A DNA stretch of 64,000 nucleotides from Sphaerolaimus hirsutus (Eukaryota; Nematoda; Chromadorea; Monhysterida; Sphaerolaimidae). The notes beneath the pieces are model-generated. The model did no database searches. It was not told where the DNA came from and was given only the letters and a program-made list of their open reading frames with translations. Of the stretch, positions 48 through 64,000 are shown in pieces. Position numbers and translations under genes: made by a program. The first letter of the stretch is position 1; each line of letters starts with the position of its first letter. The stretch is from assembly GCA_964036195.1 (NCBI GenBank), contig OZ038458.1, positions 2,232,001-2,296,000 on the forward strand, written 5' to 3'.

Positions 48-38368
<38,321 letters not shown>

Positions 38369-40732: not shown

Positions 40733-40913
40733 GTGCCAGTCTCAGACCCTGTAAACTGTCAAATGTCATGCAAAGTGTCAAAAGTCGTGTTAAACGCCCG
40801 GTAAAACGACAAACGTATGTTTGCTATACACAGGGCATTTTTACATGACTTTTGACACTTTATATGACATTTTACATTTTACTGGGCATTTTACAGGGTC
40901 TGGGACTGCCCCC
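40733..40913. mobile_element. Introner-family foldback outside WDFY3
   Basis: The left end is GTGCCAGTCTCAGACCCTG and the right end CAGGGTCTGGGACTGCCCCCAG; the arms pair along the full 181 bp. The element begins with GT (after CAG) and ends with AG, so it has the same built-in splice-site geometry as the intronic copies, but no gene is established around it. Confidence 0.82.
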
Positions 40914-42728
40914 AGAATCCCATCGCTACGCCCTACATATCGATGCGTGTATTCATTCAACACTAGGTATATTTTGTATTTTTTGCCACTGTACGCCGAT
41001 AGCTTAGAAGGACTGGGTGTTTCAGGATGGAATTTTTCTGAAATTATTCAGATTCAGCAATTTCTGGTGCGTGCACAATTTCTCATGTTCGTTTGCAAAG
41101 CCAATTTACCAATGGGTTTTCTGTGTGCTGTTTGTGCCGCACAAATGAAGGCAAATGTGATAATTAAAAATGTAAATGTGTGCGAGCTGGAAAATTGGGG
41201 CTTTGCATGGACGTTTTTGCTTGTGCAAATGTAAATACGCGTTTGCAATTGCGTTACTTGATTTTCCCTAAATATTATTTAGATGATATTTTGCTTGTGA
41301 CCATCATTTACATGTGATGTGTTTTCTTCATTTTCTTGTGGTAACTCCTGCATCCATCGAGTTTATTTTCAGGCCTATTCATTCTTCCATTCCGATTCTT
41401 AGCACCTTTCACAGCATTTAGATACAATTATTGTTTCCCTTTTTCATTAAAATTGATCCATTTTCATATTTATTTGAACACAGCTGAATATTATGTTGTC
41501 ATCAGTTTTTATATTCAAAGATTTATTTTCGATGTATTCTTTGTCCTTTTCTTTCGCTATTTATAATATTTATTTGTTGTGAGACCGTTTTGATGCTATT
41601 TTTGATTTGCCTGTGATAAATATTTACTGTCTGTCGAAATAAAAACGCATAATTTCTGATCGATTGAACATTCTGCGTTCGCAACACAATCCGTACCATT
41701 ATACGCATGTTATTACGCATGTAAGCCCATCACGCATGTAGACCCATTAAAGACACATTATACCCGCAGGGGTAAGAAAGGGGGCGTGTAACCCCACACC
41801 AAACCGCCCAGCTATCTATCTATCCCTGGCGCAACTTTTTTTGGCTACTTTCCCCTGAACACCCCCCCCCCCCTCCCCGCAAATTATCTAGCTATCTGGA
41901 CCGCTTTTGACCAATTTTACCCTAATTTTCACCCTAAATCGCTATTTTTCATATTTACTTATTATAGATTTTCACATTCAAAATAAATAGGTCATGTGTT
42001 TTTATTACATATTTTCTGCATGCCAGGTATAATTAAATGTCTTCTGGGTCAACATGCGGGATGGGTTTACATGCGGAACAGTGCAGCGGCATCAATAACC
42101 GTCTAAAACGCACAGGAGCTTGTTTCCACAGGTTTTACCGATAACACTTCAACTAAAAACTCTGTTTTAAAAACATCCTTGAATCTCATGTCGTCAAATT
42201 TCCAATCTATTTCTGTCTACGATGGCTTTGAAAGTGGGATAAACATGCAAAAAAAAATTATAAATTTGTCGAGAGTAAAACTTGTGCAAACTTGCGCATC
42301 ACCTCCGTACCTTATTACCATTGCAAAACGACAATATACAATACAGAAATAAACAAACGAAAAAGTTGTTAAAGTGTACGTACATTTACTCGAAAAATAT
42401 GCGTACGCGGTAAATACATTTACATACACTTTTTTAGAGTAATGTACTCACTTTTACGCGTACATTTTTAAAGTACCCGCGTACAGATAAAATGTGTTTT
42501 TTGTTGCTAACATCACTATTTTGTGTTGCTAACGTCATAATTATTTGTTGCTAAAATAAGAAAATCTTGAAGAAATCATATCGTTTTTCTAAAAAATAAT
42601 AGATAATGACTAAAAAGTGATAACTAGGTATGTCTTCCATTGTAATAATCACTCTCACGTTCAAAAAGTAGTAGCTTTTACATTTTCTAGGGGAAAAGTA
42701 CTCGCTTTCACATTTTCCTGGGAAAAAA

Positions 42729-42850
42729 GTATTTTACTCACATTTACGCATGAGTACGAGTAAAAAAGTATTTTACTCACATTTACGCATGAGTACGAGT
42801 AAAAAAGTATTTTACTCACGTTTACGCATGAGTACGAGTAAAAAAAGTAT
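42729..42850. repeat. 39-bp tandem repeat, three copies
   Basis: GTATTTTACTCACATTTACG followed by CATGAGTACGAGTAAAAAA repeats three times with one or two changes. Its unit is partly self-complementary (TACTC/GAGTA). Confidence 0.8.
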
Positions 42851-46723: not shown

Positions 46724-46967
46724 TACCGTATTTCCTCGAAGTACCCCCCTAGAAATATCCCCCGTCTCGAAATGCCCCCCCTCAAAATGGTCACTATGAA
46801 TTTATAAACCCCCTCGAAATACCCCCCCCCCCCCAGTTTAGTGTAAATGACAAGAGCTGCAGTTTGTGGTCCGGGCAACCCCGAACACACGTTAAAAGCA
46901 ATGACTGTGTTATGTTAGAACAGGGTTTATACCATCTACATATTTACTTTATTGACACGTTGTCGTT
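46724..46967. mobile_element. TA-flanked MITE truncated by the retroelement
   Basis: It starts TACCGTATTTCCTCGAAGTACC and continues with the same middle as the 36070-36525 copy (GTTAGAACAGGGTTTATACCATCTACATA). Its right half is missing because the giant retroelement begins at about 46961-46968. Confidence 0.75.
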
Positions 46968-47553
46968 TTCTTCCTCTTCCTCCAATTCTTCGTCGGGTTC
47001 GTCAAAATCGGGATCGAGTGAAACCGATTCGGCTTCTGAGTCTGAACGCGCGCCGCCCGTGCCAGCACATAAACAGAAACCGCTCCCAGAGGAGGAAGTG
47101 ATGGAGGTGGAACAAGAGCAGAGTGAACAAGATGTTCAGCAGCAGGAACCAGAGGAGTTGGAAGGCCAGCGGCAAGAACCCCCAGAGCCAGAAACTGAGG
47201 AGGCCAATAACGTAATCATTGGAGAGAAATTGGACGAGTTAATTCAAATGGCGGGCGAGTGGAACACCGAATGGGACGCAGAACGACAGCAGCAGGCCGT
47301 GAATCCAGACAGACAGGTGCTCAGAGAAATGGACGCCATCCAGGAAGAGGCCAATGAAGCTGAGCCCATGCAAGAAGATGAACAGGAACAGGAGCAGCCT
47401 GAGGAAGTGGCTGCACAGCAGCTGCAGCAACCTGCTCGGGTTGTTGTAGTTGGTGCCTCGCCGCCGCCACCGCAAGAGGAACAGAGTCCGCCCCCGCCAG
47501 TGACTCCGACTTTGGCAGGTTTGGAGCCAGAGGAGGAGATGGAAGCGGAGTAA
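46968..47553 (+). pseudogene. Helicase C-terminal tail fragment in the left repeat
   Basis: This copies residues about 1323-1516 of the downstream helicase ORF: Ser-rich, then Glu/Gln/Pro-rich, ending in EPEEEMEAE and stop at 47551. The frame stays open upstream into the truncated MITE (to about 46864), which is fortuitous. It lacks all helicase motifs and is probably just the U3 part of the LTR. Confidence 0.85.
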
Positions 47554-48705
47554 TGGTAATTTAGGTGTACAGGAATTTTTTTGTTTTGTTGTTGTTTTTG
47601 TTTTTTGGACGTTTTTGTTGAGCGAGCTTTTTTCCAGTATAATTGAGTTTTGTTGCATCGAAAATTGATTTTCATTGAGTTTTACCGGTTCAAAAGTTGT
47701 CGTTTTGTGTTCTCAACAAAGTGTGGAAAAATGCGTAATTTTTGATGATAAATTTAAAGTTGGTTTAAATAGTTCTTACAAAACGGTAATTTAATTTTAC
47801 TTCATTTTTAATAGTTTGGCGGTGTTTCGATTTTAGCCGGGAGGTAAAATGTATGGCTGGTGGAGTTTGTGAGCAAAAATGGGTGTCCAAAAATTGTAAA
47901 ATTCCAAAAAATTTAAACGTAAATGTATAAGCAGTTCACCTAATGAATTTATGTAGAGGGTTGTGTACATTTCCGAGCTTACAATAATTTAAACATTTCA
48001 GTTCTACTTCGACGTTGGTTTTGGGCGATTCGGTGGGCGAACGTGGCGTTGACGTTTTCGGCTACGTCGCTGCGCTACGTTGGCAACGTGCATTTCCGTT
48101 TTTCCGGTGCCCCATTGTGTTATGTGTGTCCTTTAGGCCAAGGAAAGGATTGGAGGTATTGAGGATCTGACACAAAGTTGACGCTGTGATGTAGATAGTT
48201 GTTTTTCTTTGTTTAGGAATTTTTTTTAGTTAATTAGGTAGTTTTTTGTAGTTTGTTTTAAAAAGAAAGTGAGACAAGTGAGGTGGCAACAATGTTGTTT
48301 GTGACAGATGGATTTAAAAAGTATTTTTTCATTTAGCAGTTTAGATTGCATGACGGAGTTTCACTTAATTTTCTCTAAGTAAAAGAGTGACGCTGCGGTT
48401 ACGTGTCGTAGTGCGTGGATGGTCAGTGATGACTGAGGGCACATAGGTTGAGATTTGGCTAACTTTCGCTGCATTTTTTTAACTGAGGGCCGTGGCTATT
48501 GATCTAGTATGTACTGTGCATTTCTGCATTTTCGAATTGAGAAGCAAAAGTTGATTTACAAGCGATTTTACAAAAGTACACTGATTATAGAGGTGTGGTG
48601 ATGATTGGTGTTGAAAATGAGAGGTCATTAAAAGAATCGGGTCTAACTCGACAGGCATGATCTCATGTCTAAATGCCTACTCCCTTGGCTTGTTGTGAGA
48701 ACAGC
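46968..48705 (+). repeat. Left copy of the long terminal direct repeat
   Basis: Identical in every stretch compared to 62263-64000, starting TTCTTCCTCTTCCTCC. It includes the last ~194 codons of the helicase ORF and its 3' flank. The repeat does not begin with TG at the exact homology edge; TGTCG at 46961 is a candidate LTR start if about 46 bp have been lost relative to the right copy. The true right boundary of the repeat lies beyond 48705 because the window ends. Confidence 0.9.
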
Positions 48706-49517
48706 CCAGTCCGCCGATCTCATCGAAACAAGCACCCATACAGTGACAAGTGTACTTATTTTTGAGAGAATTGAGCAGTTCGGTATTTTCGGGGTGTGGT
48801 TTTTGCACAGTACGTATGGGATCAAAGCCGTGGCTAACTAATTAACATTCTGGTAGCAGAATGAGTGGTGTAGCAGCGAGAGTGGTCATTTTCATGGTAA
48901 GTGTCTTCGGTAGTTAATGGCTGTTGCGTTTCGGCATGTGGCAGTGGATTCACTTAGAGGTTGTTTAGTTTCGAACCTTCTAAAAAATCATGCAATCTAC
49001 ACATGCATTTGAGCTAAGAAGATTAAAGTTGTTAAAATTTCAGTTGCCAGTCATTTGCATTCGTATTTTTACTTTGCGTTATACCGATTTCACATTCATT
49101 TCAATTCTAGGTTTGGTAGGGAATAGGTAAAACTCGCTCACGTATGTTAATTTTTATTGGATTTTTACTTTTGCAACTTCGCTATTTTTTATCTACCTAA
49201 TCCTAGATTGATTGTTTTTTTTGAGTATTTCCTTTTCCCCTGGAAAACTGATAACTTGACATTTGGATATTTAGGAATTTATGCAAATTTCGTGGTTGAT
49301 CTTTATTATACAAAGAGATGAAATAATAAGCCGCTTGTTTTTCCTGTTTTTTCCCGTATATTTTGATAAGTGTAAAGGTGATTTGATTGAGTGAGTATTT
49401 TATCACTCGGGTGGAATTTCCGGTAAGCGTCTTTAAAACGGTACCGTAATTCATTTTTACCTTGACAGTCAGTGTGAAAGTTAATTCCATTCGCTTTACC
49501 GGTATCCTAATTTTATC

Positions 49518-49724
49518 ATGGATTATCCCACTTACGACATTTTTTCGTTGTGTATTAATAATACGTGTGCGTCTTATGCTTTGGATATCAATGTTATCTT
49601 CGTTTACTATACGCTCTTTTTACTGATGGGATTATTGTTCGCGTGTTTGTTTGTCTCGCTTATCGCTGTGTGTTTCCCCGTTCGTGGAGGTGGTTTTGGA
49701 TTTTCAGTAGAGTTCGCAGAGTAA
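49518..49724 (+). CDS. 68-aa single-span membrane protein ORF in the putative LTR
   Basis: ATG at 49518 (context atcATGg) starts a 68-aa frame: a short polar N-terminus with an N-N-T sequon, then a strongly hydrophobic stretch of about 28 residues (VIFVYYTLFLLMGLLFACLF and on), then a short Gly-rich tail. It resembles small type III membrane proteins but no family is recognised. Expression is unproven, and a chance ORF is possible in AT-rich DNA. Confidence 0.35.
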   Translation: MDYPTYDIFSLCINNTCASYALDINVIFVYYTLFLLMGLLFACLFVSLIAVCFPVRGGGFGFSVEFAE

Positions 49725-50032
49725 TTTTTGAATCGCCCGCCATTTTTTCGCGCTAAAACAAGTTTTTACAGTATCTCTTGTGTTTTTCCTGTTCTTTTTA
49801 TTCTTCTCGCATTCGTTCATTTTCTATTTTCGTACTCGTTCCCGTTCCCATCCGTTTTTGCGCGTGAATTCTTTGTGTTTTTGTGTACTTTGATCGACAT
49901 ATCCTGTAAACTGACGCCGTGAATAATTTTAGGTATGCCTATTTTCAAATTCCGTGTGTCCGTCAAATCGGCTGTAAGCATGCTTCTCGTGGTATGTGGA
50001 AGTGTTGTCTGGACTTGGCTTATGTTGTTGCG

Positions 50033-50074
50033 TATAAAAGCGTACCGTAATTTAGAATAGGGGTCGATTCAGTC
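50033..50074 (+). promoter_or_regulatory. Core promoter: TATA box and TCAGTC initiator
   Basis: TATAAAA at 50033-50039 is followed by TCAGTC at 50069-50074, the arthropod initiator consensus; the A at 50071 is 38 bp from the first T of the box, slightly long. It would start the genomic RNA and so mark the U3/R junction. Confidence 0.55.
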
Positions 50075-50501
50075 GAAATTGCTTCGGTTTTAATTCTTGG
50101 AGTGTTTTCGAAGGTTTTGTGCCGCTGGTTAGAAACTCGCTCTCAGTGTGTTCCCTGTGTTCTATCTGAATGTGTGAATTCTGAGTCTAAAAAATCGCCT
50201 AAAATGAAATCTCTTCTAAAAACTTCGGACCCCTTGGTGTAAATTAGACATTCAACTAATTGCTAGCGCGTTGATAAAAACGCCATTCGCTAAAAAGCTA
50301 AGTTAATTGACGTAGCGTACACCTGTGACATTCACTTCGGTGAATTCACCATTGTGCGTTGCGAATTCAATCGGTAGTCGCTTTTCCGTTGCCTTACTTT
50401 GTCGCTCATCCAACGAGTAGGTGTGAGATCGGTAAAACTTGGCAGTTTGCCATAGTGGAATTTGGTTGAGTAAAAAGCAGCCGGTGAAAATTCATGACAA
50501 C

Positions 50502-50517
50502 TGGTAGCAGCGAGTGG
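50502..50517 (+). other. Primer binding site for initiator tRNA-Met
   Basis: TGGTAGCAGCGAGTGG matches the complement of the initiator tRNA-Met 3' end (TGGTAGCAGAGGATGG) at 13 of 16 positions, including the first nine. It follows TGACAAC, allowing an LTR end in ..CA at about 50498, and lies just before the gag frame. A second, weaker site, TGGTAGCAGA, is at 48851. Confidence 0.6.
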
Positions 50518-51024
50518 TTTGTTTAATATTCCCAGTGAGTTCAGGCGCCTGATCACCGTTTGACAATCGCTGGTGAGAACAAACGAACCACCGCCCGGCT
50601 GGAGGAACGGAAGGCTACCCGATCGACGCAACCGATAAGTACGGATATTTTTGTATTGGGACGTGAAACTGACGAGATTATTAGTGGGCAAAAAAGAGAA
50701 AAGCGGAAAAGTAAGAAAAAACCGAAATCGGTTCAGTTCAGTACGGACGCGCATTGTTCTGAGCCGGGAACTGCTGAGTTGAGTGACGAACCTAACGACT
50801 TTGACGTCAACTGCTGGGCGGACGCGGAAGGACCGGTCCCTGAAAGAGGTGCGGAGGAGCCATTCCCGACCTTTGAGCAAGGCAAGCCAAGTGCGGGTGC
50901 GGAGGTGCCATTCCCGACCGTAGGGCAAAGTAAGTTAGGGCACCGAAGCGCGAGTGCCGGGTACCGAAGCGCGAGTACCCAGTCGTCAAGTGAGTGTGTG
51001 TTTTTCCGGTATTCTACCTTGAGT

Positions 51025-54000
51025 ATGGCGCATGCGAGCGGTAGTGGAGTGAATACGGGTCCAGATGTGGTGCAATTGTTGATTCAAGCGAAAAATTTGA
51101 CTTTGAATCAAATTAATTCGTCGATTGTGGGAAATTCGGTTCAGGGGTCAGAATGGAATCTTAGTCAGGTTGTGACTCAAACGGTGAGTATTGCCGCTTA
51201 TTTGTATAATCAGCGACCCATGAGTTCATTGGAAAATGGGAACATGAGTGATAATGACGAAAAATTAGTGTCGTTAGTAAAGCTAGGGGTTGACTGCTAT
51301 AATTTGCGAAATGATGTGAGTCAAATTGCGGACGCGATTAATGCCTTTGCTGAGTATATTCATTTAGAAAAGCCTGACATGCAAGCGATTAATTCCGTAA
51401 TTAGCGCTGTTTCTAATTCGGGAGGGTGCTCTACCGCTACCACACCGCCTATACCTGCCGTGAGTATGGTTGCTACCAGTAGGGAGGGTTATGCCGCTGC
51501 CATGACTGCGCTTACCGGACAGGTGATACCATTTAAGGGGCGCGCCGATGATAAATTTGCTGATTGGCGTAAAAATTGGGATGCAGTTTGTGAAGCGTTG
51601 CAAATTCCGACAGACGAGCGAAAATCGTTGCTTCCGGTTTATTTGCGTGACAGCGCGCGTTCGATTTACATGTCGCATAAGAGTGAATTGATTAATTTGG
51701 ATTATGAGGAGTTCATGGACGCTTTGGAACGTTATTATACTAACCCCATTTCGGAGCATCATGCGCAAAGGGAAGTAATTAGTAGTGAGCAGGGCGAAGA
51801 TGAGGATGTGTTAAATTGGTCAGTGCGGCTGGAGAAAATTATAAAACGCGCTTTTCCGAAACTTTCAAAAATTGAACGCGAAAAGATGGCAGTGGCGAAA
51901 TTTGTTAGTGGATTGTACCCTGATATCCGTAGAAATGTATCCATTACCGCTGGGGCTAAGTTTCAAGACGTAGTCAATAATGCGCGCACGCAAGAAAGTT
52001 TTCTGGAAATTGATAAGGACAAAGTGGGTGGTAAGAAAAAGTCAAAATCCAACGCTGAATTAGTTTCAGAAGCTACCAATTCGGTAATCGAGCGAATTTT
52101 TGCTTTAGGGGGTGCGGGAGCTTTTGGAAATTCTCCGCCCGCTTCGTCGGCGGCGGAAAATCCAAAGTTTGAGGAACAACGAGTGAAACTGGAAGAACTT
52201 TCTAAGCAATTAGAGGATAAGGATAAGCGTTTAGTTGACTTGGAAAAGCAATTGATAGGTAATAATGCTGCGAAACCAGTTTCCAAGTTTAGGCCGCGTA
52301 AATTTGATGAGGGCTGTTATGAATGTGGGGCAGATGACCATTTTCGTTCTGATTGTCCCAAGTTGTCAGAAGAGGAAAGAGCGCGCTTTAGAAATTTTCG
52401 GCGCGGGCCGCCGCAGCGACCAATGAATAACTTTAGAGGTCCAGCGAATATGATGCGCTCTGCACAGCAACCCGTATATCCCATGCAAGCGGCGCCTTAC
52501 CTGTATTATCCCCCTCCCGCGCAAATGTCAACCACTAATTGGTCTCCAGTGCAACAAGTTCAATCATCGCAAATGGCCATTGCAGCCGCTCTGTCAACTG
52601 AATTGACTGCGTTAAATCCGACGCGCGTGTCTGCGAACTCAGTGAATCATGCACGCTGCGTGCAAGAAAGTAAGGAATATGTGCGCATGATTAGGGTTTT
52701 ACCAGGTCTTGAAAGTTCGGATGAGGAAGCAGAGGATCCATGCAATCCGCCTGAAATAACGCCGCAGGAACATCAATTCATGCTCGAAAGGGAGGCATGG
52801 ATTATGCCTTGGGTTTATGCGCGTTCGTTAGATAGCATGATTTTTCGAACTAAGTGGTGGGCTCAATTGCAACACATGGGTTTGCAGGGGTTGAATATTA
52901 GTGGTTTTTGTGAGCATGCTGATGAGCATCCGCATGACGATTCTGAGGACACGTTGACGTATGTTAAGTTAGAAGCGCTGCTAGAATTAACCATGCATAC
53001 GTTCATGTGTGAACCGCCGGACATTAGTTTGTCGCGAACGTCATCTGATTCTGAGTTGTACGTGTTGTCTGATTATTGTGAAGCAAGCGTGCCAACGTTG
53101 TATCGAACGTGGTCGGAACCGAGTATGTTGCCCAGTGTGTTGAACCGTGTGTTTTTCCTGTGCTGTTTATTTACGTTTTTTGCGAGTGCTGACGCCTTGG
53201 GTGTGATAGGTGGTGGTGTTGCTAAGAAAAAAGGAGTGTCAGAGGAGTGGATTTTGACCGTGCGAAATTTTCTTGAGGGATTTATTGCTGGAATGTGCAC
53301 TTTTGTGTTTCTGAGATTTTTTCTGCCCGCTTTGTGTGAACTGGTGTTGTATTTGGTGTGCGTGGTGTGTGATTGGATAAAATTGAGAGTGTTGCGGTTT
53401 CAATTAAATCGCATGCGAGCGGTAGAAAATAGGCGCAATACTGCAAGGGGTGCGACCCCCGTAACACCGCCGCAAAAGTTAAATCCAATTAGCGCTGACA
53501 GTTCAGGGTATGGCGCCGATATTGAAGAAACGCCAGTGAGTAGATTTAAGCGTTTGCCGCCGCTGCGCGTTCCTAAAGACACTGCCGTCATGGAAAAAGT
53601 TAATGTAGTCACGCTAACTAGTGAAGAAATTGCGAATATCAAAAGTATTGCGGCTAAGCGTAAAGAACTCGTGCCAATTTACTATAGTCCGTCGATTACG
53701 GTAGAAATTGAGGGGAATGAATATAAAAGGTGTCTGTTGGACACAGGTGCGATGAGGTCATTGTGCAGCCCGCTGGTGTTGGCTAGACATCGAAATAATT
53801 GCATAGCGTTTGATGAAGTCACGCCTGTGGGGGGATTGCAAAGCGCGTCTCAATGCAAATTGCAAATTGAGGGTCAGCTGGAACTTCAAGTGATGATTAC
53901 CGGGAAGGCGTTTTCTATTGTGTTTCAGGTGATTAGCGGTTTGTCGGACGACATTTTACTGGGCGCTGATGTGTTGAGGCATATGGTTATTGACATGCCT

Positions 54001-54951
54001 GCGCGTGAGTTGCGAATTGAGAGTGGCGATGCGCGTAAAAAGTTGATTGTGCCTTTTGATAACCCGCAGCCTGTTGTGCAAGAACGGCATGTTTATGCGG
54101 TTGTAACTGAACCGACTGAAATTAAGCCGCGGCATGAAACGATAATTAGTGCAAAATTGTCTGAACCAATTGATGAATTGACGTTTGCGATTGAACCTTT
54201 GAGTGAATTCCATGTGAAAACGGGTGTGTTTGCAGCTAATGCTGTTTATGAAAGTGCGAGTGAATTGTTTCCGGTGCGGTGTGTGAATGTGACTGAAGTG
54301 CCGGTAAAATTGCAAGTGGGGCAGAAAATTGCTATCGTAGAACCAGTGGAGTGTGTTTTACAAGTGCGCCGAGGTGATCCGCCTGCTGAGTGGGTGCGAG
54401 AATGTCGTGAGCGCGATTTGAGTTTTACCGATACTATACTTGAAACTAGTGAGGAAAAAGTACCGACGGAAGGCACTGTACCTTCTAAAGCAGCGAATAC
54501 AACTATGAAAGTGGTTTGTGCTGATGGGAGGGAAATGGACTTTGAGGTACCGGTCGAATTGGACGAAATTAAGCGCCAGCAATTAAAAGAGTTGATTTTA
54601 ACTCATCAGGATGCTTTCGCCAGGGATAAGTATGATTTGGGATATAGTGAATTGGTAGATTATCGACTTCAATTGACTAGCAAAATTCCGGTGGCGTGTC
54701 GAATGTATAGGTTGAGTTTGGATGACCAGCAGTACTTAGAAAAACATTTAAGTTGTTTGCTTGAGCATGACGTCATTGAACATAGTACGAGTCCGTACTG
54801 CGCGCCGACATTAGTTGTTACTAAGCCGGATGGTGCCAAGCGCATGGTGATAGATTATCGACGATTAAATGCCGTAGTTCACGCTCCCCAATTTCCGCTG
54901 CCCAGATTAGACGATACAATAGAGTCATTGCACAGTTGCAAGTATTTTTAG
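51025..54951 (+). CDS. Gag-Pol part 1: Gag, zinc knuckle, membrane segments, protease, start of RT
   Basis: The frame is open from 50560 (no ATG) and the first ATG is 51025, giving about 1,308 codons. Residues are counted from that ATG. An N-terminal helical Gag domain is followed by a retrotransposon-gag-like block (FADWRKNWDAVCEAL). A CCHC zinc knuckle (CYECGADDHFRSDC) begins at about residue 431. Two hydrophobic regions lie at about residues 707-726 and 748-784. An aspartic protease DTGA follows at about residue 906, and then the first RT motifs (TLVVTKPDGAKRMVIDYRRLN). The frame stops at 54949-54951 within RT, immediately after a run of five T; the downstream frame is offset by +1. Upstream of 51025 the open frame encodes a Pro/Ser-rich sequence with PFPT repeats, possibly a non-AUG extension. 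Confidence 0.85.
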   Translation: MAHASGSGVNTGPDVVQLLIQAKNLTLNQINSSIVGNSVQGSEWNLSQVVTQTVSIAAYLYNQRPMSSLENGNMSDNDEKLVSLVKLGVDCYNLRNDVSQIADAINAFAEYIHLEKPDMQAINSVISAVSNSGGCSTATTPPIPAVSMVATSREGYAAAMTALTGQVIPFKGRADDKFADWRKNWDAVCEALQIPTDERKSLLPVYLRDSARSIYMSHKSELINLDYEEFMDALERYYTNPISEHHAQREVISSEQGEDEDVLNWSVRLEKIIKRAFPKLSKIEREKMAVAKFVSGLYPDIRRNVSITAGAKFQDVVNNARTQESFLEIDKDKVGGKKKSKSNAELVSEATNSVIERIFALGGAGAFGNSPPASSAAENPKFEEQRVKLEELSKQLEDKDKRLVDLEKQLIGNNAAKPVSKFRPRKFDEGCYECGADDHFRSDCPKLSEEERARFRNFRRGPPQRPMNNFRGPANMMRSAQQPVYPMQAAPYLYYPPPAQMSTTNWSPVQQVQSSQMAIAAALSTELTALNPTRVSANSVNHARCVQESKEYVRMIRVLPGLESSDEEAEDPCNPPEITPQEHQFMLEREAWIMPWVYARSLDSMIFRTKWWAQLQHMGLQGLNISGFCEHADEHPHDDSEDTLTYVKLEALLELTMHTFMCEPPDISLSRTSSDSELYVLSDYCEASVPTLYRTWSEPSMLPSVLNRVFFLCCLFTFFASADALGVIGGGVAKKKGVSEEWILTVRNFLEGFIAGMCTFVFLRFFLPALCELVLYLVCVVCDWIKLRVLRFQLNRMRAVENRRNTARGATPVTPPQKLNPISADSSGYGADIEETPVSRFKRLPPLRVPKDTAVMEKVNVVTLTSEEIANIKSIAAKRKELVPIYYSPSITVEIEGNEYKRCLLDTGAMRSLCSPLVLARHRNNCIAFDEVTPVGGLQSASQCKLQIEGQLELQVMITGKAFSIVFQVISGLSDDILLGADVLRHMVIDMPARELRIESGDARKKLIVPFDNPQPVVQERHVYAVVTEPTEIKPRHETIISAKLSEPIDELTFAIEPLSEFHVKTGVFAANAVYESASELFPVRCVNVTEVPVKLQVGQKIAIVEPVECVLQVRRGDPPAEWVRECRERDLSFTDTILETSEEKVPTEGTVPSKAANTTMKVVCADGREMDFEVPVELDEIKRQQLKELILTHQDAFARDKYDLGYSELVDYRLQLTSKIPVACRMYRLSLDDQQYLEKHLSCLLEHDVIEHSTSPYCAPTLVVTKPDGAKRMVIDYRRLNAVVHAPQFPLPRLDDTIESLHSCKYF

Positions 54952-57754
54952 CAGTGTCGATATCAATCAAGCGTTTTACAACATTGCGCTGCATCCGGAT
55001 GATAGACATATTACGTCGTTTCGTAATTGTTTTGGTCAATTTCAGATGAAACGTTTGCCGATGGGATTAAAATGTTCCCCGGCTTTAGCGCAGCGCTGTT
55101 TTGAAGTTACAATGGCTGGGTTATTGCACCGGAATGTGTTGGTATATATAGATGATTTGCTCATTTACAGTAGGTCATGGGAAGATCATTTGAGTGATAT
55201 AAGTCAGGTTTTGTCGCGTTTGATAAGTAGCAGTTTTAAAATACACCCAAAAAAGTGTTTTTTCGCGCGCACAACTGCTGTTAAATTCCTGGGTTATATG
55301 GTAGGGCGAGAAGGGATTTGTATACCGGATGATAAGCGAAAGTATTTGAGTGACTGGCCGCTACCTGCGTGTGTGCGTGAAGTTAAAGCGTTTTTAGGTG
55401 CCGTTGGGTTTTTCCGAAGGTTAATTCATAAATGTGCTGAATATGCCGCTCCCTTGTCTAATTTAACTCGAACAAAAACTGAATTAGGAACTGAAAAGTA
55501 TAGCGGAAGTACTCCCGTAGATTTAAATGCAAACCCTGCTGCTTTGGAAGCTTTTAATAAGTTGAAAGTGATGGTGGCTGAGAGTCCCTGTATACAGTAT
55601 CCTGATCCCAGTAAACCGTTCATAATTATTACTGATGCTTCTAAAGTTGCATTAGCTGGCATTTTAGTACAGCGCGCTGAACCTGCCGCCGCTCTGCATG
55701 CGTGTTCATTTTATAGTCGAAAACTTTCTGAAACGCAATCTCGATGGCCTGCGATTACGCAAGAAGCATGTGCTATTTTTGAGAGCATACGCAATTGGCA
55801 TTGTTATTTAGCGGGCCGGCCGTTTGAAGTGTGGACTGATGCGAAAAGTATTTCATGGGTGAAAAATCCCAATTTGGAAACCCATCCCCATACGGGCTTG
55901 CACCGATTTGCGCTAGCTATTCAATCATATCAAGTTACTTTTAAGCATTTGCGTGGGAAAAGTAATGAATTGGCTGATGCTTTGTCGCGCCGGCGTGATG
56001 CACCTGTTGAATTTGATGAGCGTGTTAATTTGGATGAAGCTTTTGAAGAATATGCGTTTGATATACCTGCTGATGAATTGGCGAGAATTTTGACTGAGGA
56101 AATGGCGTTGTTGACATCTGAAGAACATTTGGCTAGTCAAGCAGTAGCTAAGGCTATGGCGCGATTGGCTGCCGCTCAAAATTGGCTGAAACATGCGAAA
56201 ATGAAGTCTTTGGAACCGTCAGTTACGGTAGCTGCTGAACCGCCAGTGGCAAGTGTTGCTACTGTGCGGGCACCACATCCAATGACTATGCGTGTGCGAA
56301 GTAAACTGAAGGCGGAGTCTAATTCTGAAAGTGCTTTGAAATCGCCGCCAAAAAGTGACGATGCGTCTAAATTAATGGCTGGTGGCCGCCGTTCCGCTCA
56401 ATTAATTAAGAAACCGGAAAAACTCGATGCTTTACCTCCTCCCATCACTCCAATTGAAGAGTTGTCACGTTTGCAAAAAGAAGAACCGTATATAATTACA
56501 ATTCGTCATATGTGCGAGGAATCCACTTTGCGTAGGGCCCCACCGTTTTTCATTGATCAATTTGATGTGGTTAGACGTGATGCGGATCCGTCAATATTAG
56601 TGGGTGAAAGGAAATACGACCCTGCGTGCATTCCCCAGTCGTTAGTTGTCACTGTGTTAGAATTGGCGCATAACCACCCCACTGCTGGACATTTAGGTGT
56701 GATGAAAACGTTTGAAAGATTGCGCGAATTTGCTTGGTTTACAAATATGCGTCCAGAATGTGCTAGATGGGTTTCTACTTGCCCTTCGTGCAACGCGAAG
56801 AAAGGATTGCGGCGCTCGATGAAAACTCAAATTCAGAGCCGGAAAATCGCTAAGTATCCCGGTGATTTTATTGCGATTGATGCAGTAGGGCCATTGCCAA
56901 TTACCGAAAAAAGGAATGTGCATGTATTGGTATTTGTGGATCAATGTACGCGTTTTGGTTTAGCAGTGCCCGTTCCCAATTTGAAACAAGATACTGTGGC
57001 TATTGCGTTCTTGCAACATGTGTTACCGATTTTTGGCGTGCCCGCTGTAATCTTATCCGACAATGCACCAAGCTTCATTGGCGGCATTTTTGCGGAATTG
57101 CTGCGTTATCTAAACACAGTGCAGCACAAGTGTTTCAACTACACGCCAAAAGGAAATGGTTTGGTTGAGCGCAGGAATGGCGTCTTAATGGAAATAATTT
57201 CGCATTATGTGAATGGCTCGCATTCGGATTGGGACAAACATTTAGGCGCCGCTGTCTATGCGTATAATACGTCTATGCACCCCTCTATGAAAGTGACGCC
57301 ATATGCGCTGCTATTTGGATCAAATTCTCCGTCACTTTGGGAGCGTATGATCGAGCCGACTGGAAATGGCACCGATAAGGCCGATAAGCCGACGGCGTAC
57401 AGTCCCTTTGTGTCAAATTTAGACGCGCGACTTTCGGACGTCCGCACGGCCGCGCATTCGGCTTTACAACGCGCGCAAGAAAAAGAATGTTTTTATGCAA
57501 ATCGCAGTGCGCGTCGCTTGAATTTGAAGCCCGGTCAATCAGTTCGCGTTTATTCGCCCCGAATTCTTCGAAAGTTAGGTCGCGTTAAGAAGTTCACGCA
57601 TCATTATATTGGCCCGTATGAATGCTTAGATTATGTGCACCCTATCGTGACCGTGTTTAATAGGTTATCTAAGAAAACTTATACCGTTCATGCTGATCGC
57701 GTTAAATTAACAAATGAACCAGTTAATCCCACCTATTCGCAGATTTTCGGTTAA
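54952..57754 (+). CDS. Pol part 2: RT palm, RNase H, integrase (frame +1)
   Basis: The frame is open from just after the break and ends at 57754; its first ATG is internal (55046). RT catalytic YIDD lies at 55145-55156, preceded by LPMGLKCSPA. RNase H follows, with TDAS (about 55631), the QEACAIFE glutamate, WTDAKS and the terminal ELADALSR. The integrase has an H2C2 finger (HNHPTAGH.. to CPSC, about 56675-56805), DDE residues in IDAVGPL, SDNAPSF and GLVERRNG, and a C-terminal GPY/F motif (IGPYECL). These are Ty3/Gypsy hallmarks. All catalytic residues I looked for are present, so the single frame break is the only visible lesion. Confidence 0.88.
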
Positions 57755-58297
57755 AAACCCTGAGATTTTCCGCTCTTCAACCTAAAGTGTCCCAAGTCAA
57801 TTATTCCGTTCAAAACTTAAATTAAAATTCATTTTCATTTTTATTCGGATTATGATTATTCGCGTTTAATTTCGGCCGTCAATTCGTGGTGAGTTCGGGG
57901 TTGCAATTTTTGTGTTTTTGGTTGTGCGCGAGGTAATTTTGTAGCAAAAAGTTGGGTTTTTATGTAAAAAGGTAAAGCGCGAAAATTTCATAAGTGCTAT
58001 TAATTGTTCGTTCCTAATTGTCGTCGCAGTTTTAATTCACCAGTTATTCATATTATCGCATTTATTTTTTCGTTCTAAATTCGTTCTTTAATTTCGTTCT
58101 CATTTTCGCCCATTTCGCAACAAAATAAAAATTATTTTTGGCGCAATATGTTTCACGTAGTGCGTTGAAAATAATTCGCAACTTTTCGATTAGGGTGTCG
58201 CTCAGACCTTCGTGCATTTCGGTGCCGACATTCTGGGTGGCGCATTTTAAGTAGCAATAAGTTGTGTTTTCCGGTGCTCTACTTTGAAGTGTGAAAG
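57755..58297 (+). other. Spacer between pol and helicase ORF
   Basis: 543 bp of AT-rich sequence rich in TTCG words, with no ORF and no polypurine tract. It could carry the splice acceptor or internal promoter for the helicase mRNA; I see no decisive signal. Confidence 0.5.
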
Positions 58298-61200
58298 ATG
58301 ACTAGTTTGGGAGGCGTACCTATGAGTGGGTATGGAGCGAGTTCTAGTTCGTACCGTGGCGGGCGCATAGCCAAGGCGCCGCTCAAACCGTGGACTTCCC
58401 ATGGAAAACAGGGCGGGGACACTATTCCGCCGCTGCCCTACAACCCCCCTCGAAACGCTCGATCGACTTGTCCTGAATTTGTCATCAACAAAAAGTTGTC
58501 AGGAATAGTGGATCGAGTTCACGTCGGCAACGAGCAGCGTCCTACCAGTTATCAATGTCACATTCGTTTCGACGGCGATGCGCAGGCGCTTTTGGAAAGT
58601 TATCCGGAGTGGTCGGAAGCGGAAAGGGCTTATCCATTTTTCACCTATTCGGTCAACAAGGCGGAGCGCGCTCGCGAGCGATCGGTGCAGAAAATTTTGA
58701 AGGAATATAACGAGGCCAACGCGCAGTACGACATGTTTTTGCCGCTTGTCCGCCACGGCATGCATTTTGTCGCGACTGGTATCAGTAGGGTTAGCGCCGA
58801 TCCAAAGTATTGGGAATTGCGCGGCGTCACGATTATGAAAAATGACGCTCAAATGCCATTGTTTTTGGGCCGCCCGGTTGTCATAGTTTCGCAAGGACAG
58901 GTTGACCTCTCCGTCGATGAACCGGCGTCGGAAATTTCACAGAGAAGACAGGAAAATCGCGAAGGGTATCATGCTTATCCGGCCAAGTGGAGGTATCTGC
59001 GTTTGCGGGCGGCGTTCACCCCTTCGCGGTATATCAGTGCACCCCCCTTCAAAGGCGCCGACGAGCGGGATCCGGGCCCTGAAAAGTTGATTTTTGCGCA
59101 CAGCGAAAATGTCATGGAAAGTGACGTACACCCGCACGCTGGGCAATTAGGAGTGGCGCATGTAGAGTATCATGCTTTTGACGACGCCGGCAAAGTCAAC
59201 AACTTTTACTGGGCTCATGCGTATGGCGTGCATATTTTTTCGGCGCGGGAAATTGAGTCTGGTATGGAGTGGAAGGGTGAAATGAACAGAAATCACCTTA
59301 CCTCTCAGTTGCAGCTTCGTTCCATTTTTTTGGCCGCCGCTAATGTGTGTCACGAAGCGCATTTGCGATACACTGCGACTAGGGCGAAAGCGGTGCGTGC
59401 GCAGGTGACTTGGCAAAATGGCCCGCGGGGATTAATTGCGATAATTAGGTGGGAGCGCGTGCATTTAAATCCAGCCGCTGCGATGCGCGACACGGCCGAG
59501 TGGCACAGGAATAAGGCGCAGGGCTACATGTTGAATTTCACTTCGCCTATGTCGTCGCTACAAATCGTCGAAGCTGATCCCCGGGGGGAAGAGCGCGCTT
59601 TGACTGGCCGCCCGCAAATAAGTTTACGCACGGTCAGCGCTGACATCACCGCCGATGCGGTGCAGTTGGTCGCCAAGCCGGACGTGTTGGTGCCGCAGGC
59701 GCTGTCGCCGCATTTGATGCCCAATTGCGATTACATGGTGCGCGGTTCCGCTCTGTCTCCCAGTTATAATGGCCGCATGGAAATTTTGGAACGTTTGTGC
59801 ATAATGGGCCCTAGTGGTTACCGGCCGACAGAGAGTGATACCGGAATGCTCGCTGTAGAAGATCAGGTCAAAATGGCGGTAGTAATGCACAAACAGCTGA
59901 CTCAGGTTGAAACTAATTGGCAGCGCACGCTCGAAAAAATTGAGTCTGACGGGTTGTATGCTGCGGTGCGCAGAGGCACATGCGAAGATTTATTGCAAGC
60001 GCACCAGGGTGATTTTCGGCCGCAGGAGGGGCAGGGGCGTGTGATTGCGTCAGTTATCAAGTCTGTGCGAAAAACTACGCCGCTGTTGTTGATGTGCGAT
60101 TCACCGTTCGGTTCCGGTAAAACGACTGTGCAAAGTCAGTGTGCGTACGCGGTTGCGTATAAGTTTACTGAGAAAAATGACCCGCCGAACCCGCTGAAGA
60201 GGGAATTGCCCTCTGATGCAAACAAAAATGCGCTTTACCACTCCACAATGATTACTTGCAGTGTGAATTCGGCCGCTGATGAGTCTGCTAGACGATCGTT
60301 GCAAAGTTTGGCGGACATCGGCCTGCCTACTTTGGAAAGGGTCGTAGAAGTTTTGCTGCGCAACAGGGAGATATGGACTGCGATGGATGACAAACCGAAT
60401 TTCGAAACCCCTGGCTACGCGCGTTTTTGTCAGGTGCGCGCTGCTTTCGCGATTCGCGTGCTGAGTCCGTTGTTGGAAGTTGACGATCGCTACGTCGATA
60501 TGACGCTCCAGCAATTGCCGCTGCTGAATTTAATCGCGCAAACTATGCCCGTGAATGTGATTCGATTGAATGACCACTGGCTAACTGCCTATGAACGCTT
60601 TACCGCTCAACGCCATATTTGTGACACTTTGAACGAGATCATCGCGAACAATCAGCATCCCGCCGACATTTTCGAAGCCATTCGGTCGCAGTTGCCTTTG
60701 GTTCGTTTGTCCATCGACGAAGACGACGAGGATGATTTGGTGCCACTGGACGATGGTCAAGAGGAAGGTGTGCAGGCGTGGGGGGCCGCGGCTGGCTTTG
60801 TTGACGACAACCAGACGTGGGGCAAAATTTACAAGCGCGAAATGCGACGCCTCGTTAGGGTGGCTACTAGGTTGCATAAGGTGGTGTTGAATGTGCTGCA
60901 GCCTGGTCAAGTTCACGTGACTTTGGATTCATCGCGCGACAAGCGACTGCAAGTTCTGAAATATGCCGCGGTGTTTGTGGACGAGGCGTCTCTGGCGGAT
61001 GAAACTGCCATTTTTGGCGCTGTTTCAAACGCTCGACTCCCCCACAATGGCTTGGTGCTTTTGTTTGGCGATAGCAAGCAGTTGACCCGAATGGTCAGGC
61101 CGCACTCATGGATCGCTCCGATCCTGAAACCTGATCCATCGCTGATAAACAGATTGGTGGAAGGTGTGCTGTGTCCAATTCTGAAGCTCGAGACTGTTTT

Positions 61201-62848
61201 CCGCGGCCACGACGCGCTGATTCAAGCGAATTCTGTCGCTGCGTACGATGGCCAATTGCGCGCGTTCCACGACTACAGCCAGTGGCGGGACAATTTGCCG
61301 CTCATGGCTTGCGGTGCCGATCAGGTGCCTTTGTCTTCTGTGATCGTGCATATGGGCTTCGAGGTGAGCGAGGGCGTGTCTGTTAAGAACTTGACGGAAG
61401 TGGACATTGTGGTGCGCGTTGTGCAGCAATTTGTCATTTTGGCGCTGAACAGCGAGGGCGAGAATGTCGTTCCGTGGAGTAATTTAGAAAACGCTGACTC
61501 GCTGCTGGTGGTGTGTTTCTATTCAGCGCAGGAGAGAAAAGTGATCGATGAATTGGTGCGATTGAGCTGGGCGCAGTTGTTAGGGGGTGAGGGGTTCCCT
61601 GATTATTTAGTGACCCCAGCGTTTTGGCGGAAAAAAGTCATCACTGCTGATCGAGCGCAAGCTCGTGAAGCGCACGTGGTGATTGTGTCCTGTGTGAGGG
61701 GTAGTGTGCCGCGAGTGGACGCTACTGGACATCCGTCGCAGCGCGAGCGCGATGTGATGGACAGAATTGGTTTTTTGGCGATGCCGGAGCGGTGCAACGT
61801 GGCCACGTCTCGAGCCAAAACGGCCAGGGTCGTGATTATGAACGCCGCTACCGTGCTGCATTCTGAGTTTTTCTGGCGTTTTGTGGCGGTGGAATTAGGA
61901 AAGGGACGCGTTTTTTCGTATCATGAGCGGCGTTTGTGGGAGTGTGACCCGTTGGCTAGGTTTTTGTTGCACTGGAGAAGTGCCCCGGTCGACCTGCAAG
62001 AACCCGCTCCGCCAGTGCAAGAAGAAGAAGAAAATGAGGTTCCCCCGCCGGAAGACGTCCAGGAGGTGGATGTGAGCGAACAGCGAGTGTCCCCTCAGCC
62101 AGATGCTGACGTCGCCGCTCCCGATTCCCCAGACGTGCAAATGTTGCCGCCAGAAGAGCAAGAAGAGGAGCCAGAGAAAGTGCAGCCGCGCGCGGAGGGA
62201 AAAGCGGGTTGTTCTCGGTCTCGGCGTCGATATCGCGGTCGTCGTCGCTCTCCCTCGTCGAGTTCTTCCTCTTCCTCCAATTCTTCGTCGGGTTCGTCAA
62301 AATCGGGATCGAGTGAAACCGATTCGGCTTCTGAGTCTGAACGCGCGCCGCCCGTGCCAGCACATAAACAGAAACCGCTCCCAGAGGAGGAAGTGATGGA
62401 GGTGGAACAAGAGCAGAGTGAACAAGATGTTCAGCAGCAGGAACCAGAGGAGTTGGAAGGCCAGCGGCAAGAACCCCCAGAGCCAGAAACTGAGGAGGCC
62501 AATAACGTAATCATTGGAGAGAAATTGGACGAGTTAATTCAAATGGCGGGCGAGTGGAACACCGAATGGGACGCAGAACGACAGCAGCAGGCCGTGAATC
62601 CAGACAGACAGGTGCTCAGAGAAATGGACGCCATCCAGGAAGAGGCCAATGAAGCTGAGCCCATGCAAGAAGATGAACAGGAACAGGAGCAGCCTGAGGA
62701 AGTGGCTGCACAGCAGCTGCAGCAACCTGCTCGGGTTGTTGTAGTTGGTGCCTCGCCGCCGCCACCGCAAGAGGAACAGAGTCCGCCCCCGCCAGTGACT
62801 CCGACTTTGGCAGGTTTGGAGCCAGAGGAGGAGATGGAAGCGGAGTAA
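58298..62848 (+). CDS. ORF3: 1,516-aa UPF1-like SF1 helicase in the env position
   Basis: ATG at 58298 to stop at 62846-62848. Residues 1-560 have no family I recognise. An SF1 helicase core follows in canonical order: Walker A/motif I SPFGSGKTT (602-610), motif II DEASLADE (895), motif III FGDSKQLTR (about 924), motif IV-like ETVFRGHDALIQ..AYDGQL (about 964), motif V ADRAQAREAHVVIVSCVRG (about 1117), motif VI RCNVATSRAKTARVVI (about 1165). This matches the UPF1/Dna2/SMUBP-2 group, which unwinds RNA or DNA 5' to 3'. After about residue 1240 come an acidic/Pro stretch, an RS-rich basic patch (SRSRRRYRGRRR), poly-Ser and a Glu/Gln-rich tail. Codons from about residue 1323 lie in the terminal repeat. 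The frame is intact. No signal peptide or envelope features are seen. Confidence 0.85.
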   Translation: MTSLGGVPMSGYGASSSSYRGGRIAKAPLKPWTSHGKQGGDTIPPLPYNPPRNARSTCPEFVINKKLSGIVDRVHVGNEQRPTSYQCHIRFDGDAQALLESYPEWSEAERAYPFFTYSVNKAERARERSVQKILKEYNEANAQYDMFLPLVRHGMHFVATGISRVSADPKYWELRGVTIMKNDAQMPLFLGRPVVIVSQGQVDLSVDEPASEISQRRQENREGYHAYPAKWRYLRLRAAFTPSRYISAPPFKGADERDPGPEKLIFAHSENVMESDVHPHAGQLGVAHVEYHAFDDAGKVNNFYWAHAYGVHIFSAREIESGMEWKGEMNRNHLTSQLQLRSIFLAAANVCHEAHLRYTATRAKAVRAQVTWQNGPRGLIAIIRWERVHLNPAAAMRDTAEWHRNKAQGYMLNFTSPMSSLQIVEADPRGEERALTGRPQISLRTVSADITADAVQLVAKPDVLVPQALSPHLMPNCDYMVRGSALSPSYNGRMEILERLCIMGPSGYRPTESDTGMLAVEDQVKMAVVMHKQLTQVETNWQRTLEKIESDGLYAAVRRGTCEDLLQAHQGDFRPQEGQGRVIASVIKSVRKTTPLLLMCDSPFGSGKTTVQSQCAYAVAYKFTEKNDPPNPLKRELPSDANKNALYHSTMITCSVNSAADESARRSLQSLADIGLPTLERVVEVLLRNREIWTAMDDKPNFETPGYARFCQVRAAFAIRVLSPLLEVDDRYVDMTLQQLPLLNLIAQTMPVNVIRLNDHWLTAYERFTAQRHICDTLNEIIANNQHPADIFEAIRSQLPLVRLSIDEDDEDDLVPLDDGQEEGVQAWGAAAGFVDDNQTWGKIYKREMRRLVRVATRLHKVVLNVLQPGQVHVTLDSSRDKRLQVLKYAAVFVDEASLADETAIFGAVSNARLPHNGLVLLFGDSKQLTRMVRPHSWIAPILKPDPSLINRLVEGVLCPILKLETVFRGHDALIQANSVAAYDGQLRAFHDYSQWRDNLPLMACGADQVPLSSVIVHMGFEVSEGVSVKNLTEVDIVVRVVQQFVILALNSEGENVVPWSNLENADSLLVVCFYSAQERKVIDELVRLSWAQLLGGEGFPDYLVTPAFWRKKVITADRAQAREAHVVIVSCVRGSVPRVDATGHPSQRERDVMDRIGFLAMPERCNVATSRAKTARVVIMNAATVLHSEFFWRFVAVELGKGRVFSYHERRLWECDPLARFLLHWRSAPVDLQEPAPPVQEEEENEVPPPEDVQEVDVSEQRVSPQPDADVAAPDSPDVQMLPPEEQEEEPEKVQPRAEGKAGCSRSRRRYRGRRRSPSSSSSSSSNSSSGSSKSGSSETDSASESERAPPVPAHKQKPLPEEEVMEVEQEQSEQDVQQQEPEELEGQRQEPPEPETEEANNVIIGEKLDELIQMAGEWNTEWDAERQQQAVNPDRQVLREMDAIQEEANEAEPMQEDEQEQEQPEEVAAQQLQQPARVVVVGASPPPPQEEQSPPPPVTPTLAGLEPEEEMEAE
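62195..62208 (+). promoter_or_regulatory. Candidate polypurine tract inside the helicase ORF
   Basis: GAGGGAAAAGCGGG, all purine except one C, is directly followed by TTGTTC. If it primes plus-strand synthesis, the 3' LTR would start at TGTTC (62210), which fits the TGT at 46961 in the left copy but requires a loss of about 46 bp there. Another purine-rich stretch lies at 62155-62181. Confidence 0.4.
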
Positions 62849-64000
62849 TGGTAATTTAGGTGTACAGGAATTTTTTTGTTTTGTTGTTGTTTTTGTTTTT
62901 TGGACGTTTTTGTTGAGCGAGCTTTTTTCCAGTATAATTGAGTTTTGTTGCATCGAAAATTGATTTTCATTGAGTTTTACCGGTTCAAAAGTTGTCGTTT
63001 TGTGTTCTCAACAAAGTGTGGAAAAATGCGTAATTTTTGATGATAAATTTAAAGTTGGTTTAAATAGTTCTTACAAAACGGTAATTTAATTTTACTTCAT
63101 TTTTAATAGTTTGGCGGTGTTTCGATTTTAGCCGGGAGGTAAAATGTATGGCTGGTGGAGTTTGTGAGCAAAAATGGGTGTCCAAAAATTGTAAAATTCC
63201 AAAAAATTTAAACGTAAATGTATAAGCAGTTCACCTAATGAATTTATGTAGAGGGTTGTGTACATTTCCGAGCTTACAATAATTTAAACATTTCAGTTCT
63301 ACTTCGACGTTGGTTTTGGGCGATTCGGTGGGCGAACGTGGCGTTGACGTTTTCGGCTACGTCGCTGCGCTACGTTGGCAACGTGCATTTCCGTTTTTCC
63401 GGTGCCCCATTGTGTTATGTGTGTCCTTTAGGCCAAGGAAAGGATTGGAGGTATTGAGGATCTGACACAAAGTTGACGCTGTGATGTAGATAGTTGTTTT
63501 TCTTTGTTTAGGAATTTTTTTTAGTTAATTAGGTAGTTTTTTGTAGTTTGTTTTAAAAAGAAAGTGAGACAAGTGAGGTGGCAACAATGTTGTTTGTGAC
63601 AGATGGATTTAAAAAGTATTTTTTCATTTAGCAGTTTAGATTGCATGACGGAGTTTCACTTAATTTTCTCTAAGTAAAAGAGTGACGCTGCGGTTACGTG
63701 TCGTAGTGCGTGGATGGTCAGTGATGACTGAGGGCACATAGGTTGAGATTTGGCTAACTTTCGCTGCATTTTTTTAACTGAGGGCCGTGGCTATTGATCT
63801 AGTATGTACTGTGCATTTCTGCATTTTCGAATTGAGAAGCAAAAGTTGATTTACAAGCGATTTTACAAAAGTACACTGATTATAGAGGTGTGGTGATGAT
63901 TGGTGTTGAAAATGAGAGGTCATTAAAAGAATCGGGTCTAACTCGACAGGCATGATCTCATGTCTAAATGCCTACTCCCTTGGCTTGTTGTGAGAACAGC
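62263..64000 (+). repeat. Right copy of the long terminal direct repeat (cut by the window end)
   Basis: Matches 46968-48705 with no difference seen at any point compared. It contains the helicase ORF's last 586 bp and 1,152 bp of 3' flank. The repeat continues past the window. Confidence 0.9.

Follow-up and report, generated by a model that had tools for sequence, protein, structure and literature searches.

Does a helicase gene lying behind the gag and pol genes of a Ty3/Gypsy retroelement belong to that element and, if it does, what could it do there? The question is raised by a stretch of 64,000 nucleotides from the nematode Sphaerolaimus hirsutus (GenBank assembly GCA_964036195.1, contig OZ038458.1, positions 2,232,001 to 2,296,000 of the forward strand), which as a whole is called the window below. 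A preliminary description of its right-hand part had proposed a Ty3/Gypsy-type element that encodes its own UPF1-like superfamily 1 (SF1) helicase. A search for open reading frames (ORFs) finds three long ones on the plus strand, at 50560-54951, 55046-57754, and 58298-62848. Together with reading of the sequence, it confirms that an intact frame of 1,516 amino acids (ORF3) lies 543 bp behind pol on the same strand, with its SF1 motifs in order. We are almost certain that ORF3 is integral to these elements, a lineage of env-derived Ty3/Gypsy proviruses, and kept by selection. Four findings bear out that the element itself encodes the helicase: its linkage to pol in two families, the target-site duplications around the unit, purifying selection, and its matches to SMUBP2 and UPF1 in a profile search.

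Linkage of ORF3 and pol

Searches of the organism's own genome covered 348 Mb in 762 contigs. With ORF3 as query, 31 of 819 candidates were scored; they are 94-100% identical, and 26 have no inner stop. We chose eight ORF3 copies and read them upstream. In seven, pol stands directly ahead of ORF3, its frame being broken in three of these. The eighth (C7:9.53M, L019/L046) holds ORF3 and the 3' long terminal repeat (LTR) only and is a 5'-truncated copy in which the ORF3 frame is still open.

The search with pol scored 50 of 2,966 candidates. ORF3 is listed 525-548 bp behind pol in 12 of these 50 copies, that of the window included. Stretches behind 20 of the other 38 were sought and 19 existed, of which 18 hold ORF3. 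Hence, 31 of the 50 listed pol copies were resolved, and ORF3 is present behind 30 of them and deleted in one. In the latter (C4:21.28M, L070), the sequence joins about residue 109 to about residue 1510 of ORF3 with an 18-bp overlap, which marks an internal deletion. The preliminary description had called for a test of linkage in other copies and had named, as the pattern that would speak against it, gag-pol without ORF3 together with ORF3 without gag-pol. The two genes proved to be linked and that pattern did not appear, the exceptions being this internal deletion and the 5' truncation.

Ends of the Element

The ends of the element are defined by the following features.

47868..50499, plus strand: 5' LTR, 2,632 bp, with ends TGTGAGC...TGACA; all six other copies start alike
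63163..64000, plus strand: first 838 bp of the 3' LTR, which runs past the window as far as the equivalent of 65794
46961..47867, plus strand: leftward extension of the 5' LTR, 907 bp, which repeats 62256-63162 (the end of ORF3 and what follows it) and is absent from all six other copies
50502..50519, plus strand: primer binding site TGGTAGCAGCGAGTGG, read directly from the sequence and adjoining the 5' LTR

The direct repeat that had been said to enclose both gag-pol and the helicase gene is real. Positions 46962-48705 equal 62257-64000 (99.9% up to the window end), and the repeat extends to 50501 on contig sequence beyond the window. The LTR proper is, however, 47868-50499, and the 907 bp before it are an extension specific to this copy. 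Indeed, in all six other ORF3-bearing copies the 5' LTR starts at the equivalent of 47868 and the 3' LTR ends with TGACA, followed each time by different DNA. All six are flanked by 4-bp target-site duplications (CTAG, GTAG, ACTT, CCAC, CCTA, and CATA), and they are 17.9-19.2 kb long with ORF3 inside each. Since these six copies fix both ends, the LTR can be set at 2,632 bp and the element at 17.9 kb, with ORF3 between the LTRs. The window copy without its extension is thus 17.9 kb long, which corrects the earlier figure of near 19 kb. An LTR start at 46961, with ORF3 overlapping the LTR, was considered and is ruled out by the start of the other copies at 47868; ORF3 lies outside the LTR because its stop is 314 bp ahead of the 3' LTR.

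The LTR pair of the window copy differs at just three of 2,632 sites, so that the insertion looks young. A possible target-site duplication, ACGT, stands at 46957-46960 and behind the 3' LTR. The first seven bases of the extension differ from their source at three places, and it may have arisen, for example, by a misplaced plus-strand start or by recombination.

The assignment to Ty3/Gypsy follows from several features. The domain order is protease, reverse transcriptase (RT), RNase H, integrase (with a weak protease match, E = 0.044), the LTRs have the form TG...CA with 4-bp target-site duplications in all six other copies, and the primer site stands beside the 5' LTR. We take this primer site, TGGTAGCAGCGAGTGG, to be of the initiator-tRNA-Met type. 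Ahead of 63163, where the polypurine tract of Ty3/Gypsy elements would be, there is just a short G-rich run. A search for pol relatives found 374, and among the 120 listed several of the named ones are Gypsy-like or Tf2-like.

These ends bear on the possibility that a host or foreign helicase gene came by chance to lie beside, or within, a Gypsy element of the common sort. Gypsy elements do not usually carry a helicase, and the first observation was of one copy only, which made such an accident worth considering. Set against it are dozens of linked copies in two families and, in six of six copies of the window's family, target-site duplications round the whole unit. Chance nesting is thereby ruled out, and we give it next to no probability.

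A Sister Family With an Envelope Domain

Further copies were found by a genome search with AAA_12, in which 150 of 454 candidates were scored. The two best-scoring ones are probably host-gene exons; the scores of the other 148 lie between 90 and 98 bits, and many of these matches are in frames of about 1,330 amino acids. Two AAA_12 loci were read, and both belong to a second family in which pol is likewise followed by ORF3. Its pol is 58% identical to that of the window's family (62% over a shorter piece in the second locus), and its ORF3 is 39.7% identical over residues 30-1214, the N-terminal half included. The LTR end and the primer site are laid out as in the window's family in the one copy read. 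A search with the sister pol scored 58 of 2,115 candidates; for 57 of the 58 listed, an AAA_12 match lies downstream on the same strand, at 3.03-3.05 kb in 55 cases and at 3.7 and 7.1 kb in the others, and the remaining one has no downstream AAA_12 match among those listed. Because both families bear ORF3 with its N-terminal half behind pol, the gene, this half included, probably predates their split.

In the sister family, a match to Monjiviricetes_fusion, a mononegavirus-type glycoprotein, stands in frame between gag and protease (E = 1.1e-6; 27.3 bits, the cut-off being 27). The env region was seen at L075:1-1356 and L076:936-4997. In the window's family, the env ectodomain is missing and hydrophobic segments alone remain. 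Since the sister family keeps a fusion glycoprotein at this place, the most fitting view is that the lineage is proviral and that the window's family has lost its envelope.

ORF3 as a UPF1-Like Helicase

The third frame is made up as follows.

58298..62848, plus strand: ORF3, UPF1-like SF1 helicase protein, 1,516 amino acids (AAA_12, E = 3.4e-19)
58298..59977, plus strand: ORF3 N-terminal region, residues 1-560, conserved in the sister family
60110..61819, plus strand: helicase core, with seven SF1 motifs
62018..62845, plus strand: acidic C-terminal tail with an RS-like (arginine-serine-like) run, under looser constraint

The motifs follow one another in intact order from I to VI: I, GSGKT (residue 605); Ia, ITCSVNSAADE (652); II, DEAS (895); III, GDSKQL (924); IV, LETVFRGH (964); V, TADRAQARE (1116); and VI, NVATSRAK (1167). 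Residues 1-560 have no Pfam match at E up to 1, and the RS-like run is absent from the tail of the one sister-family copy read.

In a profile search of solved structures with both families, the best matches are SMUBP2 (E = 1.7e-5) and UPF1 (E = 6.5e-4). Among Pfam matches at E up to 1 there is none to Viral_helicase1. On the basis of the PDB profile search and Pfam, and not of a tree, ORF3 thus stands nearer to UPF1/SMUBP2 than it does to the SF1 families of viruses. The UPF1 zinc-binding (CH) domain also has no Pfam match in ORF3 at E up to 1, so that ORF3 is not established as an UPF1 orthologue. Outside the organism, none of the 7,986 candidates scored is related to residues 1-1240 at E ≤ 0.001; one match at E = 0.003, to residues 870-1210, is itself UPF1-like. 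Viral and prokaryote contigs yielded no relatives of ORF3.

ORF3 is under purifying selection in the window's family, with a ratio of nonsynonymous to synonymous substitution rates (dN/dS) of about 0.1. With the Nei-Gojobori method on six sequences of that family, pairs with dS of 0.14-0.29 give dN/dS values of 0.04-0.11 for alignment columns 1-545 and 0.08-0.14 for columns 546-1240. The tail is looser (0.11-0.35), and very close pairs give noisier values, up to 0.41. The part of pol that follows the frame change described below has values of 0.05-0.17 in five open-frame sequences of eight. All these values are descriptive because the copies are not independent.

A Frame Change Inside the Reverse Transcriptase

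The gag-pol region comprises the following features.

50560..54951, plus strand: ORF1 (gag, env relic, protease, first part of RT), first ATG at 51025
51544..51885, plus strand: gag capsid domain, ORF1 residues 329-442 (PNMA family Pfam match, E = 1.3e-5 / 4.1e-6)
52312..52362, plus strand: CCHC zinc knuckle, ORF1 residues 585-601 (Pfam E = 0.0028, below the curated cut-off; motif visible in the sequence)
53149..53385, plus strand: hydrophobic segments from ORF1 residues 864, 907, and 924, probable env remains
53695..53982, plus strand: aspartyl protease, ORF1 residues 1046-1141 (Pfam E = 0.044, weak, at the expected position)
54943..54952, plus strand: frame-change site TAT TTT TAG C inside RT, the same in all copies read
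54923..57754, plus strand: ORF2 frame (remaining RT, RNase H, integrase), 943 amino acids

The domains named in the preliminary description for Gag-Pol (zinc knuckle, protease, RT, RNase H, integrase) are all matched by Pfam, the first two weakly; its pol, however, consists of two frames. ORF1 ends as ...CKYF at a TAG (54949-54951) within RT, and RT resumes in another frame as SSVDINQAF. This second frame bears the remainder of pol, with matches to RVT_1 (6.3e-18), RT_RNaseH_2 (5.8e-26), Integrase_H2C2 (1.2e-15), and rve (4.3e-9).

The site TATTTTTAGC is found in the window and in all seven other copies whose RT was read, and it is identical in the one sister copy read (L075:2579-2630), although the pol proteins of the two families are only about 58% identical. 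The 943-amino-acid frame is found in all 50 listed pol copies, 48 of them without inner stop, and 52 of the 58 listed sister pol copies have frames of 915 or 919 amino acids. A sequencing error or decay is excluded as the cause of the break, which is common to every copy examined and is followed by a selected frame. As the site is conserved across copies and two families, the frame change is probably a recoding event, putatively a +1 step at TTT-TAG. For a recoding site, a conserved position inside RT would be out of the ordinary.

A Second Group of Helicase-Bearing Elements

A genome search with AAA_11 gave 28 matches, with open frames of 944-1,183 amino acids at 13 loci, and five of these loci, here called group B (L010 to L014), were read. 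A gag-sized frame stands ahead of the helicase in four of the five (L010-L013, of two types), and both such frames tested (L010 and L013) match Retrotrans_gag. Behind the helicase, L010 has a frame with env (1.1e-8) and protease, and L012 has a 631-amino-acid frame without Pfam match; at both loci RT, RNase H, and integrase follow (L047, L048). Neither of the two group-B RT frames that were read is interrupted. At L014, which carries a third type of helicase, neither a gag-sized frame nor a long RT frame behind it was seen.

The three helicase types are 40-44% alike and, beyond the core, do not clearly resemble ORF3. In Pfam they match AAA_11, AAA_12, and AAA_30 best; L014 also exceeds the Viral_helicase1 cut-off (24.9 bits, with 21 required), and L010 matches that family weakly. 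Among solved structures, group B matches NAM7, the UPF1 of yeast, at 1.6e-6.

A common origin of ORF3 and the group-B helicases was considered, but the comparisons do not bear it out. Profile comparison aligns the core only, at E = 0.012 and a probability of 3.7%, and a narrower profile gives E = 0.058 and 0.9%. In a tree of RNase H-integrase, the window's lineage (group A) and group B stand apart, a split of 51 leaves with A and without B having a support of 0.966; the tree comprises 123 sequences (A, B, and 119 of the 120 listed pol relatives), has no outgroup, and is weak at many deep nodes. Two captures of a helicase thus appear likelier than one.

Possible Roles of the Helicase

As an overall explanation, we favour an integral, selected UPF1-like helicase gene whose product, made by the element, would work on the element's own RNA against surveillance, and we consider this fairly probable. 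Taken by itself, action on the element's own RNA seems somewhat more probable than its absence, as judged from the sequence, and a specific opposition to UPF1-type decay may be suggested tentatively. The stop inside RT is followed by over 8 kb of RNA and the pol stop by over 5 kb, and it is by long tails of this sort that host UPF1 recognises RNA for decay. According to PMC3484045, UPF1 binding to HIV-1 and model 3' untranslated regions scales with length, and readthrough or frameshifting is proposed as a protection of HIV-1 or retroviral RNA. The helicase of the element would load onto the genomic RNA in the place of host UPF1 and would strip or exclude surveillance and silencing proteins; the long polycistronic RNA might thereby stay translatable and packageable.

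Several observations weigh against this explanation. Stops are present in five of the 31 listed ORF3 copies. C4:21.28M has lost most of ORF3, and its pol frame is open and listed as 100% identical in protein to that of the window; because this pol is open, a copy may be able to do without its own ORF3 (in cis) or to use that of another copy (in trans). The predicted structure of residues 541-1240, made from a two-row alignment, has a mean predicted local distance difference test (pLDDT) score of 31.8, so that the fold is assigned from sequence. Finally, frequent bypass of the stop inside RT could ease the decay problem without any helicase.

The copy C4:21.28M bears equally on an alternative role in replication, in which a particle-borne helicase would act while the RNA is packaged and reverse-transcribed, unwinding or remodelling the lengthy genomic RNA and the cDNA, as helicases do in large RNA viruses. 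A genome of 17.9 kb with LTRs, the retention of ATPase and unwinding motifs, and the presence of a UPF1-like helicase in two unlike Gypsy-type groups of the same genome would all fit such a role. However, C4:21.28M keeps an open pol without most of ORF3, ORF3 is a separate frame outside gag-pol, and for giant Gypsy elements of the Burro kind (>30 kb) section 7 of PMC6431247 describes no SF1 helicase. We hold this role to be rather unlikely.

UPF1-like helicases have places in silencing and decay pathways, and this membership would also suit a suppressor of host RNA silencing, by Piwi-interacting or small interfering RNA. According to PMC6338049, transposon-encoded helicases are weakly suppressive in a plant system, and ORF3 could behave like them. 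Those tested in plants are, however, of the RNA-virus type, for which ORF3 lacks the Viral_helicase1 match, and a role of this kind is improbable in our view.

Returning to the favoured explanation, the two groups may be joined in a broader and doubtful reading. Gypsy retroviruses of this genome would have captured UPF1-like helicases at least twice, behind pol in two families and behind gag in at least two families, one with adjacent env, with a third related helicase besides. In the first lineage, the stop inside RT would be a +1-bypass switch between structural proteins and RT, the element's own RNA would be an extreme target of decay, and the UPF1-like enzyme that it brings would serve to survive surveillance. 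We know of no described parallel to a retroviral strategy that combines such a switch with an UPF1-like enzyme.

Other Features of the Window

Exons of a host gene with a BEACH domain and WD-type repeats lie at 28921-32226. On the minus strand, 39317-39955 holds a fragment of another reverse transcriptase (RVT_1 5e-4, below cut-off). Dispersed repeats of about 190 bp, at 10109-10300, 18186-18381, 27979-28171, and 40737-40916, match one another, and several also match their own inverse. Tandem arrays occupy 40279-40501 and 42723-42845, with 40-bp TTTTCCG-rich units and 39-bp units.

Comparison With Known Systems

The preliminary description implied that retroelements lack helicases, which is too strong. 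SF1 helicases occur in TRAS and Jockey long interspersed nuclear elements (LINEs) and in Ty1/Copia fusions of Aedes aegypti and Leptopilina boulardi, as PMC5563155 and PMC6338049 report. Its narrower point, that no SF1 helicase had been described in a Gypsy third ORF, holds in that we found no Gypsy element with a separate UPF1-like helicase gene in the literature, as covered without most subscription papers and without any bioRxiv preprints. The LINE and Copia elements resemble the present ones in being reverse-transcribing elements with SF1 motifs. Their helicases are, however, of the RNA-virus type and fused in frame to LINE ORF1/ORF2 or to Copia domains, whereas ORF3 has its own frame and matches UPF1/SMUBP2.

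Env-bearing, errantivirus-like Ty3/Gypsy elements (Metaviridae) share the order gag-protease-RT-RNase H-integrase, TG...CA LTRs, the adjacent primer site, 4-bp target-site duplications, and, as regards the sister family, env. The present lineage differs from them by the additional 1,516-amino-acid helicase gene behind pol, by the frame change in RT, and, in the sister family, by env fused between gag and protease.

The giant Burro elements of planarians offer a further comparison. According to PMC6431247, they are very large, carry a mononegavirus-type env in frame between gag and pol, and are read as proviruses, like the present lineage. At that place, the sister family has a match barely over cut-off and the window's family hydrophobic segments only. 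Burro elements have BIR, ankyrin, MATH, and BCL2-like domains of their own and, in one species, a midasin-like AAA ATPase, and section 7 of that paper names no SF1 helicase; conversely, Burro-type apoptosis or ubiquitin domains have no Pfam match in the window frames or the sister pieces. LTR elements of bdelloid rotifers also have a family-specific non-envelope ORF3. The passages on it in PMC5408684 name DEDDy and GDSL types, and helicase occurs there as a word just once, among the references.

With respect to cellular helicases, motifs V and VI of ORF3 resemble those of UPF1 (AQARE...SCVR, IGF...NVATSRAK), and UPF1/SMUBP2 are its best profile matches among solved structures. ORF3 differs from them by its low similarity, the lack of a zinc-binding match, its own 560 N-terminal residues, and about 285 residues between motifs I and II. 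Finally, HIV-1 has no helicase of its own and exploits cellular ones, according to PMC3484045. An UPF1-like enzyme carried by two divergent families, and under purifying selection in the one measured, is a natural experiment on the role of such an enzyme for reverse-transcribing elements, and a lineage of this kind opens the relation between retroelement RNA and nonsense-mediated decay to direct test.

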